In this document: piece after piece, positions 750 to 7,187 of the stretch
Position numbering within the stretch: the stretch's first letter is position 1
Layout: the number at the start of each line of letters is the position of its first letter
Source: Candidatus Omnitrophota bacterium
GTDB taxonomy: Bacteria > NPL-UPA2 > BS750m-G34
DNA length: 7,229 bases
NCBI GenBank assembly: GCA_030640045.1
Contig: DAOWKF010000080.1
Coordinates: 1-7,229 of the forward strand
Direction: 5' to 3'
Position numbers and translations under genes: made by a program
Notes under the pieces: model-generated
Database searches by the model: none
The model's input: the letters and a program-made list of their open reading frames with translations, nothing else
Told to the model about the DNA's origin: nothing

Positions 750-2115
750 TATTCATCACCTCCCCATAAAACCCGTAACTTTTAAGCTTGGCGCAGGTTA
801 CCTCTCCGATGCACTTCATTATTATTCCCTCAGGTATTTTTTTATATACAGCCATAAAATTTTGGACGGTAGATGGACTGGTAAAAATTATCTCATCGAT
901 TTTATTAAAATCTATTTTTTTAACTTTCGACGGCCTTACATTTTTATAAACCGTAAGCGCTTTAACATTTGCGCCTGTTTTTCGTAAGGCCCGGGGGAGA
1001 TAATTGCTTGATAAATTAGACCGCGGGATTAAAATGTTTTTGCTTTTTAAATTAAATCTCCTGAGGGCCTTCACTATTCCCTGCGATGATTCTTTTCTGG
1101 GGACACAATCGACTCTAATCCCGTATTCCTTTAATTTATTGGCAGTAGCCCTGCCAATGGCACAGATTCTAACCCCTCCCCTGCCTCCCATGCAGTAATG
1201 TTTCCGTAGACACGCAGGGGCGGGGTCAAAAAAATATTTAACAGCATATCTGCTGGTAAATATTATCCAATGGTATTTACTAATTTCTTTAACCTCTTTT
1301 TTAACCTTAGTATAATCATTTAACGCCGCAATCTTTATCAAAGGCGCATGCAATATTTCCCCCAGATGCCTGAACCTTTCAGGATTTGTACCCGTGAATA
1401 AGATTCTCTTTTTGGTTTTATTTAAAATCCCTCTCAGGTCCACAACCTTTCCTACTACAAATACTGCCGGCGGACTAATTTTCTTTTTCTGCGCTCTCCC
1501 TGCAATATTCTCTAAATTTCCCTGGACAATCTTTTGGTTTTTGAAGGTCCCTCTTTCAATCAATATACACGGTGTGCCAGGAGACTTTCCTTTTTTAATA
1601 AGATTTTTTACTATCCTTTCTAAATTAGTAACAGCCATCAAAAATACCAGAGTAGCTGCAGAAATGGTGTTATCTTTTCTATGGCCGGTAATTATTGCAA
1701 CTGAAGAGGCATAATCCCGATGTGTTAAAGGTACCCCGCAAGAAGCAGGAATAGCTATGGCTGAACTTACTCCCGGAACGACCTCGCAGGGAATATTCCT
1801 TTTTGAAAGATAAACTGCTTCTTCCCCGCCCCTGCCAAAGACGAATGGGTCACCATTTTTTAAACGCACTACTACCTTACTTTTTTTAGCCTTCTCTTCC
1901 AGCAATTTGTTTATCTCATCCTGCTCCATTGAATGATGTTTATAAGATTTCCCGGCATAGATAAGTTTTGCGCCTTTTCCGGCAAAATTAAGCAATTTTT
2001 TATTTATAAGAAAATCATAAATAATTACATCTGCTTTTTTAATAAGACCCAGGCCCTTAACAGTAATTAACCCGGGATCTCCCGGCCCTGCACCGACTAA
2101 ATAAACTTTTCCCAT
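730..2115 (-). CDS. cobA-hemD: Fused uroporphyrinogen-III C-methyltransferase / uroporphyrinogen-III synthase (CobA-HemD)
   Basis: A 461-residue bifunctional protein. Residues 1 to about 235 are a SAM uroporphyrinogen-III methyltransferase (C2 and C7, giving precorrin-2): [10 protein letters not shown] at 7-16, [16 protein letters not shown] at 84-99, [12 protein letters not shown] at 113-124, [11 protein letters not shown] at 155-165. Residues about 236-461 are HemD, which cyclises hydroxymethylbilane with D-ring inversion: IIFTS at 284-288, ICAIGRATA at 317-325, ILIPRSNL at 361-368, [12 protein letters not shown] at 409-420, KCIGEVT at 434-440. CobA-HemD fusions are known in anaerobic bacteria. 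Oddities: N87 where the family usually has glycine (RLKGGDPF), A161 where LMG is usual, and residues 297-315 encoded by an inverted repeat. The start overlaps hemC by 19 nt with no clear Shine-Dalgarno, so translation is probably coupled to hemC. The 3' end overlaps hemB by 20 nt. Confidence 0.95.
755..763 (-). promoter_or_regulatory. Strong Shine-Dalgarno for hemB
   Basis: On the minus strand GGAGGTGAT ends 5 nt before the hemB ATG at 749, an almost full match to the 16S rRNA anti-SD. It lies inside the last codons of the cobA-hemD frame (encoding G-E-V-M). It fixes the hemB start and is the best ribosome binding site in the window, so hemB is probably translated independently of the upstream gene rather than only by coupling. 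Confidence 0.85.
1172..1226. repeat. GC-rich imperfect inverted repeat inside the hemD coding region
   Basis: The left arm ACCCCTCCCCTGC (1172-1184) and right arm GCAGGGGCGGGGT (1214-1226) pair over 13 bases with one mismatch and a 29-base loop. The patch is much richer in G and C than the flanking coding DNA. In the hemD frame it encodes residues 297-315, a stretch containing [13 protein letters not shown] that does not look like the usual linker between the FTS...KYFF and ICAIG motifs of HemD. The reading frame is preserved. It could be a small palindromic element inserted or substituted in frame, or chance; only other copies in the genome would show a mobile repeat. Confidence 0.6.
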
Positions 2116-2786
2116 TTTGTAACAAAATTTTTTATTTCTATATCCCCTTTTCTTATTTCAATAGCTAAAGAACCTTGCAAAGGATGAGGTTTTAAAATAT
2201 CGAAAGGCAATCTCTCGGTTATCCTGTCCTTTAACCCCAGACGAATAAGCCCGGCGGCAGCTATAATAATAGCATCAAGGTCCCCCTGCTCTAATTTTCT
2301 TAATCTCTCCACTATGTTCCCGCGGATGTCAAAAATTTCAAAATCATTACGAAAAGATTTCAACTGACTTTTCCTGCGCAGACTGCTTGTCCCGACTTTA
2401 GCTCCGGAAGGAAGCTCTCTTAACTTAAGATTATTCTTTGAAACAAGTACATCATATGGGTCTATGGACTTTAATATTGCTGCGATTTCTAACCCCTCGG
2501 GCAATACATCCGGCAGATCCTTTGCACTGTGCACGGCTAAATCAATTTCTCCGTTTAGCAGGGCATTTTCAATTTCTCCGGTAAAAAAATCCGTTCCCTC
2601 CAGTTTTTCAAGAGGGCTTGTCTTATCTCTATCTCCGAGTGTCTCTACCTTAATGATATCAAAACCAAGCTCCGGATGAACCCCGTTCGAAATTTCGCCC
2701 TCTTTAAATAGCGCTATTACCTCATCTACCTGCTTCAGGGCTAAAGGACTGCCTCTGGTACCGATTCTAATGATTTTTTTTGCCAT
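2097..2786 (-). CDS. hemC: Porphobilinogen deaminase (hydroxymethylbilane synthase) lacking domain 3
   Basis: Homologue of the enzyme that polymerises four porphobilinogens into hydroxymethylbilane. Substrate- and cofactor-binding motifs of domains 1 and 2 are kept: IGTRGSPLALKQ at 8-19 (R11, S13), VHSAKDLP at 85-92 (K89, catalytic-type D90), GTSSLRR at 132-138, IRGNIVERL at 154-162 (R155, R161), AAAGLIRLG at 176-184, and LQGSLAIE at 203-210. At 229 residues it stops just after domain 1 resumes; typical proteins are about 310. The whole of domain 3 is missing, including the cysteine (C242 in E. coli, LEGGC) that carries the dipyrromethane cofactor. The protein contains no cysteine anywhere. 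cobA begins at once in another frame, so no remnant of domain 3 can follow. The start overlaps hemA by 46 nt; the Shine-Dalgarno is weak (AAAGAG, distant). Family identity is certain; activity as a standard deaminase is open. Confidence 0.93.
   Translation of the reverse strand: MAKKIIRIGTRGSPLALKQVDEVIALFKEGEISNGVHPELGFDIIKVETLGDRDKTSPLEKLEGTDFFTGEIENALLNGEIDLAVHSAKDLPDVLPEGLEIAAILKSIDPYDVLVSKNNLKLRELPSGAKVGTSSLRRKSQLKSFRNDFEIFDIRGNIVERLRKLEQGDLDAIIIAAAGLIRLGLKDRITERLPFDILKPHPLQGSLAIEIRKGDIEIKNFVTKWEKFI
2741..2786 (-). other. 46-nt dual-coding overlap of hemA and hemC with an A8 slippery run
   Basis: The same DNA encodes the HemA tail WQKKSLESVPEAVL in one frame and the HemC start MAKKIIRIGTRGSPLAL in the other. 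Both peptides match conserved family motifs (the VP motif after the HemA helix, and the HemC GTRGSPLAL substrate loop), so neither frame looks like a random extension. At 2774-2781 the coding strand has eight A. In the HemA frame it reads CAA AAA AAA, giving an in-phase A-AAA-AAA heptamer at 2780-2774. A -1 slip there would join HemA directly to HemC residue I5. Confidence 0.8.
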
Positions 2787-3763
2787 TTATTTAATTCTCT
2801 TTGAATTATCGCTTCAGCAAGCCGCGCTTCTTGTTTCCTTCTTGCGAAATTCTCTTCAACCGTGGATTTCAAACCATCCAGGTCATACAAAATTATATCA
2901 GAAATATCTTTTGCTCCGGGATCAACATCCCTGGGTAAAGCAATGTCCATTATCACCAGCGGCTTTTTTCGTAACTGCATAACTTCCATTAAAATTTCTT
3001 TTCTCAAAATCAAATGAGGGCTTGTTGTAGAACTTATAACAATATCCACTGTTTTCAATTTTTCTTTTAGATGGGTAAAATTTATAGCCTCACCTCCGCA
3101 GTTTGAAGCAAGTTCTAATGCCCTTTCATAAGTCCTGTTAGAGACAAAAATTCCCTTGATCCCTTTTTCTTGAAGATACTTACTTATTAAAGTGCCTATC
3201 TTACCTGCGCCAATAATCAATACAGACCTATCCTGCAGCTCTCCCAACTGTTCTTCACACATTTTTATAGCTACGCTTCCTATGGATATATTTCCCTGTG
3301 ATATTTTGGTTTCCTGCCGCACAATCCTTCCTGTTTCAACTGCCTTTTCAAATAATTCATTAAGCAAATTGCCAATTACTCCCGCATCTTTAGCTACAGT
3401 CCAGGCATCTCTTATCTGGCCCAGAATTTGGGTCTCTCCTAAAACCTGTGAATCCAATCCGGAAGAAACCCTGAAGATATGGCGGCAGACATCTATATCT
3501 TCCAAGACGTAAAAATAACGTCTTATATCATTCTCACAAATCTCATAATGGGCATATAAAAACTCTTTTATCTTTTGCATGCCGGAATTAACATCGGCAA
3601 AATGCGTATAGATTTCCATCCTGTTACAGGTAGAAAGTATAACTGCGCTAAATTCTTTGAGTTCAAAGAGGGCCTCTTTAAGCTGCCTTTTGGTCAAAAA
3701 AAATTTTTCGCGTATTTCTAAGGGGGCTGTTTTGTGATTTATCCCGATTAATAATAAGTCCAT
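2741..3763 (-). CDS. hemA: Glutamyl-tRNA reductase lacking the C-terminal dimerisation domain
   Basis: NADPH-dependent reduction of glutamyl-tRNA(Glu) to glutamate-1-semialdehyde, first step of the C5 pathway. Numbering is from ATG 3763 (340 residues). The catalytic domain has LLIGINHKTAP near the start and the thioester cysteine C46 in STCNRMEIY; SQVLGETQILGQI lies at about 105-117. The NADPH-binding GAGKIG at 185-190 is followed by SNRT and DIVISSTTSPH. The helix ENFARRKQEARLAEAI (304-319) follows, then the protein ends at SLESVPEAVL. Family members run about 400-430 residues, continuing past this VP motif into a helical dimerisation domain that is absent here. A TTG at 3766 extends the frame by one codon; ATG 3763 is preferred because AAGGAG lies 8 nt upstream and it shares TGATG with the sirC stop. 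The last 46 nt also encode the HemC N-terminus. Confidence 0.94.
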   Translation of the reverse strand: MDLLLIGINHKTAPLEIREKFFLTKRQLKEALFELKEFSAVILSTCNRMEIYTHFADVNSGMQKIKEFLYAHYEICENDIRRYFYVLEDIDVCRHIFRVSSGLDSQVLGETQILGQIRDAWTVAKDAGVIGNLLNELFEKAVETGRIVRQETKISQGNISIGSVAIKMCEEQLGELQDRSVLIIGAGKIGTLISKYLQEKGIKGIFVSNRTYERALELASNCGGEAINFTHLKEKLKTVDIVISSTTSPHLILRKEILMEVMQLRKKPLVIMDIALPRDVDPGAKDISDIILYDLDGLKSTVEENFARRKQEARLAEAIIQRELNKWQKKSLESVPEAVL

Positions 3764-4206
3764 CAAATCAACTCCTTTAATTTATCTCTTATCCTTACTG
3801 CCTTTCGCGGGGATAGACCATCGGTAGAAACGGCAATGGTTACGCCCTTTTGCCTTAATACTGCTGGAAGAACAAAAGTTGATTTTTTTGCCGAGTCACA
3901 GACATTCACCATGATATCCGATTTTACAGCATCTCCGGCTATTTTGGAATTTATTTTTCGGCCGGACGTAGCTACAAATACAAGATAGGCTCCTTTTAAC
4001 AGCCTGGATTGGTATTTACATTTAATATAATTTATTTTTTTCTGCCCGGACATTTCAGCAAGCATGGGTGTTAATTCAGGACTTATTACTTTCACCTTTC
4101 CTCCATAAAAAAGGATATTTTTCACTTTTCTCTCGGCAACCTTTCCTCCGCCGATAACAATACAAAGTTTGCCTTTTATATTCAAATTAACAGGATAAAA
4201 TCTCAT
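3763..4206 (-). CDS. sirC: Precorrin-2 dehydrogenase (SirC / CysG N-terminal type), short form
   Basis: NAD-dependent oxidation of precorrin-2 to sirohydrochlorin, linking CobA to the corrin enzymes. The 147 residues start with YPVNLNIKGK, followed by the Rossmann loop IGGGKVAERKV at 18-28, then ISPEL at 41-45. The catalytic aspartate is probably D104 in NVCDSAKKSTFVLPA, equivalent to D104 of Salmonella CysG. ISTGGKSP-like AVSTDGLSP lies at 125-133. It ends soon after the first dimerisation helix; the further helical part found in CysG, Met8p and roughly 200-residue SirC proteins is missing. This makes a ferrochelatase or cobaltochelatase activity unlikely and leaves cobalt insertion to another protein. 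It starts with ATGA overlapping the cbiH stop, with AAAGGA (4215-4220) 8 nt upstream. Its product could also feed sirohaem. Confidence 0.9.
   Translation of the reverse strand: MRFYPVNLNIKGKLCIVIGGGKVAERKVKNILFYGGKVKVISPELTPMLAEMSGQKKINYIKCKYQSRLLKGAYLVFVATSGRKINSKIAGDAVKSDIMVNVCDSAKKSTFVLPAVLRQKGVTIAVSTDGLSPRKAVRIRDKLKELI
3772..3777 (-). promoter_or_regulatory. Shine-Dalgarno for hemA
   Basis: AAGGAG on the minus strand lies 8 nt before ATG 3763 and 5 nt before the in-frame TTG 3766. It sits inside the sirC coding end. Together with the TGATG stop/start arrangement it favours ATG 3763 as the hemA start. Confidence 0.7.
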
Positions 4207-5036
4207 CGGTCATTTCCTTTAATAATATTATAGCCTCGAGGGGTTATCATATATCCCCCTTTTACATAAGTCTCGGAATTACCCACGATTATAGTTGTGC
4301 GCATATCGATCATTCTCAAACAAAGCATATTTTTAAGTTCGGTTATCTCTATACTCTCATTCTCTCTATATGCATTCCTCACTATCCCTACAGGGGTTTG
4401 AGGTGATTTATATTTCATTAGTATCTGCCAGGCAGCCTTAAGCGGTGTTACTCTGCTTTTACTCCGGGGATTATAAAATACAATTACAAAATCTCCCTGG
4501 CAAACTTTTTTCACTCTTTCTTCAATTAATCTCTTCTCTGTCAGACAGTCACTTAAAGAAATTACCGCGAAATCGTGTACCAACGGCGCGCCCAGGAGGC
4601 TTGCGCAGGCAGAAGCGGCTGAAATCCCGGGGATAACCTCTATTTTAATTTTCTCTCTCTCATCATTACTTAAAAGCTCTAAAACTATCCCTGCCATGCC
4701 ATATATCCCGGGATCTCCGCCTGAAACAAGACAAACCCTATTTCCCTCCAGCGCCTTTTTTATAGCAAATTTTGCCCGCTTCACTTCCCCGGTCATGCCG
4801 GAAGAAATAATCTCCTTCTTATGCACCAAATTGCCGAGTAGTTTTATATAGGTTTTATAACCGATAACCACATGGGTTTTATTTAAGGCATTCCTGGCTC
4901 CAGGGCTTAAAAGGCTTGTATCTCCCGGTCCAATCCCTACTATGCTTAACTTTCCTTTGCCACGGCGACTGTTACACCGTCTATTATCTGTTTTGGCGAT
5001 ATTAATTTTGTCCTCCTTCCGGCCAGTAATGCGCAT
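4203..5036 (-). CDS. cbiH: Cobalt-factor III / precorrin-3B C17-methyltransferase (CbiH/CobJ family)
   Basis: SAM-dependent methylation at C17 with ring contraction in the corrin pathway. Motifs, numbered from ATG 5036: GKLSIVGIGPGD at 28-39, VVIGYKTYI at 56-64, SSGMTGEV at 78-85, LVSGGDPGIYGMAG at 103-116, PGISAASACASLLGAPLVHDFAVISLSD at 136-163, VIVFYNPRSKSR at 184-195, TPVGIVRNA at 214-222, TTIIVGNSET at 247-256 and TPRGY at 265-269. These distinguish CbiH from the other methylases. Homologues normally begin one to three residues before the GKL motif, yet the only conventional in-frame start is ATG 5036, giving about 27 extra residues and a 91-nt overlap with cbiG. No ATG, GTG or TTG lies in frame between that ATG and the motif. 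An ATT at 5004-5006 preceded by AAGGAGG is an unusual alternative. The 3' end overlaps sirC by 4 nt. Confidence 0.93.
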   Translation of the reverse strand: MRITGRKEDKINIAKTDNRRCNSRRGKGKLSIVGIGPGDTSLLSPGARNALNKTHVVIGYKTYIKLLGNLVHKKEIISSGMTGEVKRAKFAIKKALEGNRVCLVSGGDPGIYGMAGIVLELLSNDEREKIKIEVIPGISAASACASLLGAPLVHDFAVISLSDCLTEKRLIEERVKKVCQGDFVIVFYNPRSKSRVTPLKAAWQILMKYKSPQTPVGIVRNAYRENESIEITELKNMLCLRMIDMRTTIIVGNSETYVKGGYMITPRGYNIIKGNDR

Positions 5037-5698
5037 GGTTCACACACTCCATAAACTCCTATATTTCGCTTTACTATTTCTGAACCACGGCCATCAGTCC
5101 TGAACCTGGTAATTTGCTCCCGGCTAAAGAACACCAAAGGCAATCCCAATATCTCACATGCACTAATCAATCCTTTCTCATCTTTTTTTAAATCGACAGT
5201 AGCTGCCAAACGTACCTGCCGTAAAGTAAGATTATTACTTCGCAAAACAGCCTTTATAGCCTTTTTCACCCTATAAGTCTCAATACCTCTTCTACACCCT
5301 ACTCCTACAATAAATTTTCTATGCACCTCCGAGCCGGTAGTAATAACCGGATGTGCGCCAAGGGAAGCTGCTACTTTGTAAGCCAGGCTGTTAGCGCCTC
5401 CTTCATGACCGGAAAGTACGCTAATAGCGTATCTTCCGGCAGTATCCACACAAACAACCGCGGGATCGCTATGCTTATTCTTTATAAAAGGACTGATAAC
5501 GCGGACCACTATGCCCACGGCCGCACAAAAGACTACTCCCCCATAATCAGAAAAAATCTTTTCCGTAATATCGGTCAGAGACTTTTTCCTGTAAAGGGGT
5601 GTTTTAATATTTATAACTTTAGCTCCTTTTATAGTTTTTTTAAGCCTTTCTGCCAGGGCTTCGCCGTTTTTATTAATTACAACAACCGCTGTCCTCAT
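4946..5698 (-). CDS. cbiG: Cobalt-precorrin-5A hydrolase CbiG lacking the central domain
   Basis: Opens the C20 delta-lactone of cobalt-precorrin-5A and releases acetaldehyde; it marks the anaerobic, cobalt-early route. The N-terminal domain shows AAVGIVVRVISPFI at 59-72, DPAVVCVD at 78-85, and SGHEGGANSLA at 96-106. The C-terminal domain shows VGVGCRRGI at 131-139, AATVDLKKDE at 165-174, and ends with PKQIIDGVTVAVA, as usual. The protein is 250 residues; family members are about 320-350 with a central domain (CbiG_mid) between these halves. Here ITTGSEVHR at 119-127 runs straight into FIVGVGCRRG, so roughly 90 residues are absent. There is no frameshift: the frame is continuous across the junction. 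The start ATG overlaps the cbiF stop (ATGA), with AGGAAGG (5703-5709) 4 nt upstream. Confidence 0.92.
   Translation of the reverse strand: MRTAVVVINKNGEALAERLKKTIKGAKVINIKTPLYRKKSLTDITEKIFSDYGGVVFCAAVGIVVRVISPFIKNKHSDPAVVCVDTAGRYAISVLSGHEGGANSLAYKVAASLGAHPVITTGSEVHRKFIVGVGCRRGIETYRVKKAIKAVLRSNNLTLRQVRLAATVDLKKDEKGLISACEILGLPLVFFSREQITRFRTDGRGSEIVKRNIGVYGVCEPCALLAGRRTKLISPKQIIDGVTVAVAKES
5012..5018 (-). promoter_or_regulatory. AAGGAGG inside the cbiG end, possible cbiH ribosome binding site
   Basis: This full Shine-Dalgarno core lies within the cbiG/cbiH overlap, downstream of the cbiH ATG 5036 and 5 nt before an in-frame ATT (5004-5006). It also encodes the RR of the CbiG C-terminus, so it may be coincidental. 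It matters because it would place translation initiation nearer to the conserved cbiH start than the ATG does. ATT starts are rare (E. coli infC is the known example). Confidence 0.35.
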
Positions 5699-6447
5699 TT
5701 AGCCTTCCTGTACATATGAGAAAAAAATTTATCGTATAGTTTACTCCTGCGGAAATTTTTCTTCGCCAAAACATCACCTACAAATATCAAGGCCTGTCTG
5801 GATATCCCGGAATCTTTAAGTTTTTCAATAATATTGCAAAGCATTCCGGTTATTATCTTCTCCTCGGGCCACGAGGCCCTGTAAACCACAGCAACCGGGG
5901 TATTTTTATTATAGCCGGCAAGAAGTTTCTTAACAACCTCTTCTATCCTTGCTATGCTCAGAAAAATAACCAGTACCGCCCTTATCCTTGCCAAATTTTT
6001 CAAATCTTCCCTCAAAGGCACTTTTGTCCTGCCGGAAACCCTGGTGATAATAACTGTCTGGCTTATGCCTGAAAGGGTAAGTTCCTGTTTCAATGCTGCA
6101 GAGGCAGCGCAAAAAGAGCTCACTCCCGGAACAACTTTATATTCTACATTGTTATCTTCGCACCAGACAATCTGTTCCTGAATAGCGCCGTATAAAGAAG
6201 GATCACCGCTGTGAATCCTCGCTATTATACCCGGCTTTTCAGCAAATCTCTCATATACGTCAATCACTTCATCAAGGGTCATGCCGGCTGAATCATAAAT
6301 TTTTGCTTTTTTCCTGGCATATTTTAAAATCTTTTTATTTACCAGGGAACCTGCGTAAATAATAACATCTGCTTTCTTAATAATCTTTTGCGCCTTTATA
6401 GTGAGCAATTCCGGGTCACCGGGCCCGGCGCCTATAAAGTATATCAC
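5695..6447 (-). CDS. cbiF: Cobalt-precorrin-4 / precorrin-4 C11-methyltransferase
   Basis: SAM-dependent methylation of the corrin intermediate at C11. The 250 residues match the CbiF/CobM family throughout: YFIGAGPGDPELLTIK at 3-18, ADVIIYAGSLV at 26-36, DSAGMTLDE at 52-60, RIHSGDPSLYGAIQEQ at 77-92, VPGVSSFCAASAAL at 106-119, ELTLSGISQTVIITRVSGRTKVP at 122-144 (conserved QT, TR and GRT positions), FLS at 162-164, TPVAVVYRASWPEE at 183-196, and ALIFVGDVL at 219-227. It starts with GTG at 6447, supported by GGAGGAG 6 nt upstream; the GTGA overlaps the cbiL stop. The basic tail after residue 228 is unremarkable. The first 50 residues resemble the CobA half of the cobA-hemD product, as expected for paralogous methylases. 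Confidence 0.95.
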   Translation of the reverse strand: MIYFIGAGPGDPELLTIKAQKIIKKADVIIYAGSLVNKKILKYARKKAKIYDSAGMTLDEVIDVYERFAEKPGIIARIHSGDPSLYGAIQEQIVWCEDNNVEYKVVPGVSSFCAASAALKQELTLSGISQTVIITRVSGRTKVPLREDLKNLARIRAVLVIFLSIARIEEVVKKLLAGYNKNTPVAVVYRASWPEEKIITGMLCNIIEKLKDSGISRQALIFVGDVLAKKNFRRSKLYDKFFSHMYRKAK

Positions 6448-7187
6448 CTCTTTCTCCTCCGCAATAAAATAGTAGACATATAACCCAGGGCCTTTTTGCT
6501 ATTATTCAATTTGGAAATATCATCAACGATATATTGCTTTTGGCGTCCAAGCCATTTAGCAAAATAAAAAGAGCCTTTGAATTTCTCTTTCTTTAAAAAT
6601 CTCACCAGACGGTTTAAATCCTTGCCTATTTTAAGTAAGACCACTGTATCGAACTGTTTCAAAAATTTTTTTAAATCTGTAAGCTTTCCCGGCAAAGGAA
6701 TAACCGCAAGCCTCTCATTGGCTTCTGCCAATGGGACAGAAAAGGCAGAGGCAACAGCGTTAACAACGCTTATCCCTGGTATAGTGCGTATATCTATATT
6801 CTTATCAACCTTATAGAGATAGCGTAATAAATACATATAAGTACTGTAAATCAACGGATCACCGATGGTTATAAATACTATTGTCTTCCCCGGGCAAAGC
6901 TCTCTATGAACTTTTAAAGCTGCCCTGCGCCAGAAAGTTTCTAATGTCTTTTTGTCTTTACTCATAGGGAAAACAATGGTTTTTATTTTGTCCCGGGGAA
7001 TGTATTTTTTTATTATTTCAGCAGCTAAAGATGCGGATTTAATACCTGCTTTGGGAGCAAAGACCACATCTGCTTTTTTCAAAATATTACGGCCTTTAAT
7101 TGTCAGGAGTTCAGGATCTCCCGGGCCTATCCCTACACCGTAGAGGATACCACGGGATTTCATGCCTTTTTTAAAAACAGAAGCCAT
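6444..7187 (-). CDS. cbiL: Cobalt-factor II / precorrin-2 C20-methyltransferase
   Basis: Methylates C20 of cobalt-sirohydrochlorin, the first corrin-specific methylation. Motifs, numbered from ATG 7187: ILYGVGIGPGDPELLTIKG at 14-32, ADVVFAPK at 39-46, ITIGDPLIYSTYMYLLRYL at 106-124 (the GDPLxYSTY pattern is typical of CbiL/CobI), IPGISVVNAVASAFSVPLAE at 136-155, LAVIPLPG at 160-167, and VLLKIGKDL at 183-191. Length, 247 residues, is normal or slightly long. Two starts are possible. ATG 7187 has a purine-rich GGAAAGG upstream. ATG 7163 (residue 9, MKSRGILYGVG) fits the family's usual start better and would give an ATGA overlap with a possible upstream frame, as at other junctions here, but it lacks a well-spaced Shine-Dalgarno. 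The tail is strongly basic (LLRRRKR). Confidence 0.93.
   Translation of the reverse strand: MASVFKKGMKSRGILYGVGIGPGDPELLTIKGRNILKKADVVFAPKAGIKSASLAAEIIKKYIPRDKIKTIVFPMSKDKKTLETFWRRAALKVHRELCPGKTIVFITIGDPLIYSTYMYLLRYLYKVDKNIDIRTIPGISVVNAVASAFSVPLAEANERLAVIPLPGKLTDLKKFLKQFDTVVLLKIGKDLNRLVRFLKKEKFKGSFYFAKWLGRQKQYIVDDISKLNNSKKALGYMSTILLRRRKR
6454..6460 (-). promoter_or_regulatory. Shine-Dalgarno for the GTG start of cbiF
   Basis: GGAGGAG on the minus strand ends 6 nt before the GTG at 6447. It lies in the codons for the arginine-rich CbiL tail. It supports the GTG start, since no ATG is found near the YFIGAGPGDP motif. Confidence 0.75.

Follow-up and report, generated by a model that had tools for sequence, protein, structure and literature searches.

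A two-domain hydroxymethylbilane synthase homologue without domain 3 or any cysteine, and the class of short HemC proteins to which it belongs

HemC links four pyrroles into a chain in the pathway to heme and vitamin B12, and in the known enzyme a cysteine in domain 3 holds the growing chain. How might a HemC that is missing both this domain and its cysteine do its work? The question is raised by the hemC gene (positions 2097 to 2786, minus strand) of a 7,229-nucleotide stretch of DNA, contig DAOWKF010000080.1 of the Candidatus Omnitrophota bacterium assembly GCA_030640045.1, which is referred to here in its full length as the window. In the literature, the cysteine to which the dipyrromethane primer is attached is called invariant (PMC3949521), and the usual description of the first steps toward heme, siroheme, and vitamin B12 includes this cysteine-linked primer (PMC7242693). 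We suggest that HemC proteins of the short type likely grow the chain without a cysteine bond, because dozens of genomes have no version other than the short one, which does not include the cysteine-bearing domain.

Domain content and distribution of the short form

We use D3 for domain 3 of HemC, Pfam family PF03900, and D3-less for HemC proteins without a PF03900 domain. The window gene, defined by its open reading frame (ORF), Pfam, and TIGR00212, runs exactly from ATG to TAG and encodes 229 residues, none of them cysteine. PF01379 is complete in the product (residues 6 to 219, profile positions 1 to 206 of 207, 245.8 bits), no further Pfam domain was matched at an E value of ≤1, and PF03900 was matched neither in the protein nor in the genome of the window at an E value of ≤10; in the positive control, PF03900 was matched in 11 of 14 genomes, the same 11 as PF01379. 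The hemC equivalog model TIGR00212 was passed with 254.8 bits against a cutoff of 164, covering only positions 1 to 213 of 293. NF002202/PRK01066, a 241-position hydroxymethylbilane synthase (HMBS) model that is short like the window protein, was matched over positions 18 to 227, and the window HemC is not called by it because its score of 199.4 bits lies under the cutoff of 251. We take PRK01066 to be the chlamydial HemC model, and the Chlamydiae loci L105 and L107 group with the D3-less proteins in the trees described below.

Domains 1 and 2, the catalytic aspartate (Asp90), the arginine cluster (Arg11, 137, 138, 155, 161, and 182), and the fold are common to the window HemC and the solved three-domain HMBS, or porphobilinogen deaminase, of E. 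coli, B. megaterium, and humans, whereas the D3-less class differs in its lack of domain 3, of the anchor cysteine, and of the Arg116-type partner and in its acidic residues at primer-ring positions. The window protein has the features of that class (no domain 3, Asp66, Glu22, Glu160, and no arginine at 107), the class definition having been drawn from a sample that includes the window protein itself. It is therefore a two-domain relative of HMBS without domain 3 and without cysteine, as a first-pass annotation made from the DNA alone had described it, retained motifs of domains 1 and 2 included.

That annotation proposed a search of relatives for the same short protein, which brought to light a widespread class with signature residues of its own. 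A protein search with the window HemC gave 7967 matches at an E value of ≤1e-20 among 7998 scored; among the best 120 of these 7967, 113 are 199 to 250 residues long, and most of the named ones are from Candidatus Omnitrophica. In a scan of named genomes, 80 of 564 relatives were kept as loci, and a profile of D3, made from 47 domain-3 segments, sorted 260 HemC proteins into 104 with domain 3 and 156 without; none of the listed negatives showed even a weak match. Thirty-five of the 80 named loci are D3-less, with labels of Omnitrophota, Bacteroidota groups, Babeliaceae, Chlamydiae, WOR-1, WS1, and Termititenax (the phylum scan placed the genome of L101, labeled Verrucomicrobiota, in the Chlamydiae phylum). 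Leaving aside L079, which is cut by a contig end, PF01379 was matched in all 34 genomes of the D3-less loci (in two of them twice) and PF03900 in none; the 34 genomes searched have HemC in the short form only. The separate domain-3 protein for which the annotation had also advised a search was found, by PF03900, neither in these 34 genomes nor in that of the window.

The proportions differ among groups. Among 189 genomes of the Omnitrophota (the phylum of G063, the genome of locus L038), 98 match PF01379, 52 match PF03900, and 46 match PF01379 alone; two, G156 and G166, hold both a D3-bearing and a D3-less HemC and are perhaps mixed bins. In the order of G087, which a Prevotella record suggests to be the Bacteroidales, the short form is rare, since only 4 of 38 genomes with PF01379 (198 searched) are without PF03900, which was matched in 34. 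TIGR00212 was matched in 80 of 92 genomes of the Chlamydiae phylum (that of G089), and 79 of the 80 matches stop no later than position 237 of 293, with one reaching position 273, a count that rests on TIGR00212 match ends rather than on PF03900 and includes 8 matches containing one or two stop codons. HemC was matched in two of nine genomes of the window's own small phylum, those of the window and of G004, the latter protein being full length (318 residues) with domain 3. In other phyla, PF01379 was matched in 30 of 51 genomes, and the loci fetched (L003 to L031, less those of G000 and G004) all carry domain 3 by profile; most bacteria therefore have the known, D3-bearing form. PF03900 searches of the 189 Omnitrophota genomes and the 198 genomes of the G087 order gave two domain-3 matches on a contig other than that of the PF01379 match, in G236 and G424, where PF01379 is itself partial (positions 1 to 101 and 2 to 102 of 207), and both look like one hemC broken between contigs. 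A literature search found no account of a natural D3-less HemC, with most subscription papers outside its scope.

The D3-less proteins form one class in the trees. In a FastTree tree of 257 proteins, constructed without the partial sequences L079, L016, and P0110, the 154 D3-less proteins were split off exactly with a support of 0.997. When 120 protein-search matches were added and eight rows were omitted (the partial L079, L016, P0110, L087, L096, P0157, and P0167 and P0121, a duplicate of L042), 270 D3-less and 102 D3-bearing proteins were again separated exactly, with a support of 0.992.

In Prevotella sp. DNF00663, a 219-residue D3-less HemC, the only HemC found in that genome by the PF01379/PF03900 search, is encoded among hemN, PPOX, hemE, hemA, a HemD-like protein that scores below its cutoff, hemB, and hemL. 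D3-less HemC is fused to HemD (L042, Omnitrophota), to CobA-HemD (L057, Babeliaceae; L073, Prevotellaceae), to a TP_methylase domain (L089), and to HemA (L075), and further HemC-HemD or HemC-CobA-HemD fusions are among the protein matches listed. In precomputed Pfam assignments, HemC is also joined to the low-molecular-weight phosphatase domain PF01451 in six proteins (P0013, P0042, P0055, P0088, P0103, and P0221) and to the HD domain PF01966 in P0114. Leptospira interrogans has a HemC linked to HemD as in the Omnitrophota fusions, compared here by description; that fusion is reported, in an excerpt of a secondary source, to have both activities (Guegan 2003 as cited in PMC8698207). Leptospira was found neither among the plasmid records listed, 60 of 84, nor among the names shown for protein-search matches.

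Residues of the cleft and the primer site

No cysteine is conserved in any alignment column of the D3-less class, and since none is shared, no single thioether anchor can serve the whole class. The commonest cysteine column, 178, is occupied in 137 of 270 D3-less and 5 of 102 D3-bearing proteins, and 37 of the 270 have no cysteine within the two domains. An alternative cysteine anchor for the class was rejected on these counts, with Cys178 still a candidate for part of it. The want of any cysteine in the window protein, to which the first-pass annotation gave prominence, is real but less special than it seemed, for 22 of 154 D3-less proteins, the window HemC among them, have no cysteine in the whole ORF; the stronger feature is the lack of a conserved one.

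The catalytic aspartate and most arginines of the binding cluster do not vary. All 270 D3-less proteins have Lys89, Asp90, Arg138, Arg155, Arg161, and Arg182, and Arg11 is found in 264, with gaps in the other 6. Asp90 (codon at 2517 to 2519, this and all codons below on the minus strand) is the catalytic aspartate, human Asp99, and Arg11 (2754 to 2756), at the position of human Arg26, is invariant in the 56 sequences of alignment A1. Other positions set the class apart. Asp66 (2589 to 2591) is aspartate in 259/270 D3-less and 0/102 D3-bearing proteins; Asp93 (2508 to 2510; human Thr102 by count) is acidic in 170/270 and 0/102, respectively; and His201 (2184 to 2186) is histidine in 234/270 and 0/102. 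Glu160 (2307 to 2309) is found in 247/270 D3-less proteins, with threonine there in 100/102 D3-bearing ones; Glu22 is found in 265/270 versus 6/102; and Leu203 is found in 247/270, with glycine or alanine in 94/102 D3-bearing proteins. Conversely, the position of human Arg116, by count Ser107 in the window (2466 to 2468), is arginine in 100/102 D3-bearing and only 4/270 D3-less proteins. E. coli equivalents were taken from an alignment to 1ypn, a K59Q mutant (Thr65 at Lys59 and Asp66 at Gly60), and human equivalents were obtained by counting from the anchors Phe77, Asp99, Arg149, Arg167, Arg173, Arg195, and Gln217, which places Asp66 at human Ser75.

These changes appear to coincide with the places taken by the tethered primer rings in human ES2. 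According to passages of one structural paper covering wild-type and R173W ES2, the displaced ring C1 contacts Pro101, Thr102, and the Val215 main chain, and ring C2 contacts Lys74, Ser75, Phe77, Lys98, Asp99, and Ser262, not every contact being made in both structures (PMC7907807). In the alignment, the positions of human Lys74, Ser75, and Thr102 and neighbors of Val215 are changed in the D3-less class, and two of them, those of Asp66 and Asp93, have turned acidic, which would be a poor fit for tethered rings with their carboxylates. In the human enzyme, Arg116 forms a pair with Glu250 of domain 3 (PMC10577081, in excerpt), and R116W is described as leaving 0.5% activity (PMC3738108, in excerpt). 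The Arg116-type arginine has been lost in the D3-less class along with its domain-3 partner, and such a joint loss would look like the outcome of an old, integrated loss. In six loci of the Babeliaceae, Bacteroidota, and Termititenax (L057, L061, L073, L080, L089, and L097), Arg137 is lost and Cys178 is present in all, perhaps marking a different primer site.

The operon and its bin

On the minus strand of the window, hemA (2741 to 3766), encoding glutamyl-tRNA reductase, lies upstream of hemC and overlaps it by 46 bases (2741 to 2786) at the hemA end. Next after hemC comes a cobA-hemD fusion (730 to 2115), encoding uroporphyrinogen-III methyltransferase and synthase by Pfam and TIGR profiles, whose start overlaps hemC by 19 bases (2097 to 2115). 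By profile matches, hemB (3 to 749) is cut by the window edge, and a precorrin-2 dehydrogenase of the CysG N-terminal type lies at 3763 to 4206; they are accompanied by corrin genes (4203 to 7187), namely, three tetrapyrrole methylases (TP_methylases; 4203 to 5036, 5695 to 6447, and 6444 to 7187) and CbiG (4946 to 5698). The run from hemB, cobA-hemD, hemC, and hemA to the precorrin-2 dehydrogenase, methylases, and CbiG is most of a corrin route, which needs hydroxymethylbilane; hemL is absent from the window. The 341-residue HemA had no match to its dimerization domain, GlutR_dimer (PF00745), at an E value of ≤1. That domain is present in only 21 of the 189 Omnitrophota genomes, in 16 of 52 D3-bearing and 5 of 46 D3-less ones (Fisher P value of 0.025, the genomes being related); a tie between the two domain losses was not used, being a weak trend only, with the domain scarce in both groups.

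The bin of the window comprises 834,704 bases in 138 contigs and is 71% complete, so its own want of a full-length hemC is weak evidence and the relatives carry the case. The second hemC of the bin is not the full-length copy for which the first-pass annotation advised a search but is short as well: in an operon on contig C9, a 232-residue HemC, 76% identical to that of the window, stops at the same point between hemA and cobA-hemD. The bin holds two divergent hemA-hemC-cobA/hemD runs (L001 / G000:C9:13977-14630), by duplication or by the binning together of two species. A gap in the assembly, or a frameshift, at the junction of hemC and cobA-hemD was rejected as unlikely in view of the intact 19-base overlap, where the CobA start is intact, and of the same end on the second contig, and the lengths of 113 of the 120 listed relatives also counter it.

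How the chain may be held

We take the D3-less class to be active, on the grounds of its gene neighborhoods, its HemC fusions, and the genomes in which it is the sole HemC. On balance, we favor the view that in the short protein the first pyrrole unit is kept in the cleft through contacts only, with no cysteine bond, and that the linear tetrapyrrole is assembled onto it; the primer, possibly porphobilinogen itself, would be held without a thioether. Asp90 and Arg11 would deaminate porphobilinogen as in the known enzyme, and the primer would be gripped by the arginine cluster together with Asp66, Asp93, and His201, at the site occupied in human ES2 by the displaced, tethered rings C1 and C2. 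Hydroxymethylbilane would be released without a cut from a tethered dipyrromethane, since the aminomethyl end of ring A could be deaminated and hydrated, chemistry that the cleft already performs, and would pass to HemD, which is encoded by a gene that overlaps hemC or is joined to it in a fusion. A stricter proposal, which we advance tentatively and with more doubt than belief, is that the protein is a primer-free synthase that uses exactly four porphobilinogens and no dipyrromethane cofactor, the first being held by side chains with its aminomethyl end at acidic residues and release occurring through ring A deamination.

Several observations weigh against a chain held by contacts alone. Passages on the human enzyme describe a form truncated to lose domain 3 as unstable and nearly inactive (PMC10773753), Cys261 as intolerant of change (PMC10577081), and the chain as bound only at Cys261 (PMC10577081, PMC7907807); because the human enzyme depends on domain 3 and Cys261 in this way, the D3-less class would need a compensation that we only infer. 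The primer site is not uniform, since Arg137 is kept in only 181 of 270 D3-less proteins, and its human equivalent, Arg149, binds ring S1 at the C1 site. Position 93 is nonacidic in 100 of 270 (tyrosine in 53), His201 is replaced by threonine or alanine in the three tabulated Chlamydiae-type loci L101, L105, and L107, and Cys178 may matter in those proteins that have it. Residue positions rest on alignment and not on coordinates. The D3-less grouping leans on the signature columns, for when 25 of them were removed the class support fell to 0.358 and one protein, L051, was misplaced, and the sample is not random, the D3-less rows having been found through likeness to D3-less queries.

The first-pass annotation had listed a noncovalent primer, another anchor or a partner protein, and inactivity as options; inactivity now looks unlikely, and the sequence does not choose among the rest. 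A primer still covalently bound to a moved anchor, N-linked to His201 or, in part of the class, on Cys178, seems to us unlikely: both residues are strongly enriched in D3-less proteins, and His201 lies beside the position of human Val215, whose main chain is among the C1 contacts described in PMC7907807, but the window HemC has no cysteine at all and each of the two residues is missing from part of the class (of 43 representatives at 60% identity, 23 have His201 and 19 have Cys178). The Chlamydiae-type loci that do not have His201 carry alanine at 178, and, by spacing, Cys178 would lie near the growing rather than the anchored end. The overlap of hemC with cobA-hemD in the window and the fusions in L042, L073, and L057 invite the idea that HemD, CobA-HemD, or another protein docks in the place of domain 3 and supplies the anchor or the missing domain. 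We consider this unlikely too, as PF03900 is missing from all 34 genomes, albeit a replacement of another fold would escape that profile, and free-standing short forms are common. HemD as the stand-in was rejected after an AlphaFold2 (AF2) model of the HemC-HemD fusion showed confident domains (mean predicted local distance difference test [pLDDT] score of 90.5) in no fixed arrangement, its predicted template modeling (pTM) score of 0.52 and low-confidence linker meaning that no fixed docking is predicted.

It is improbable, too, that the D3-less protein makes a product other than hydroxymethylbilane from porphobilinogen; the loss of domain 3 and the class-specific acidic residues of the cleft would suit such a change, but the neighboring genes continue to HemD, HemE, and corrin or heme genes, and no D3-bearing HemC was found in the 34 genomes searched. 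Decay or an assembly gap behind the short gene is unlikely, and we regard it as very improbable indeed that the window gene has decayed or lost its activity while another, full-length HemC is encoded at a different place in the genome. The incompleteness of the bin and the 2 of 189 Omnitrophota genomes with both forms speak for it, and they are opposed by the invariant catalytic residues, the second short copy, and the status of the short form as sole HemC in 34 of 34 genomes, in keeping with the doubts about simple decay voiced in the first-pass annotation.

A widespread class that serves as the sole HemC of many genomes without the domain and its cysteine implies that the primer is bound or provided by other means or else is not needed. 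Two questions thereby become directly testable, namely, what purpose the tether serves and what fixes the chain at four rings, and an enzyme of 206 to 230 residues offers an unusually small core for their study. If the primer-free proposal is true, the basic machine would be a two-domain polymerase to which the textbook cofactor and the cysteine that binds it are optional extras; roughly half of the Omnitrophota that have hemC, almost all Chlamydiae that have it, and sections of other phyla would do without them.
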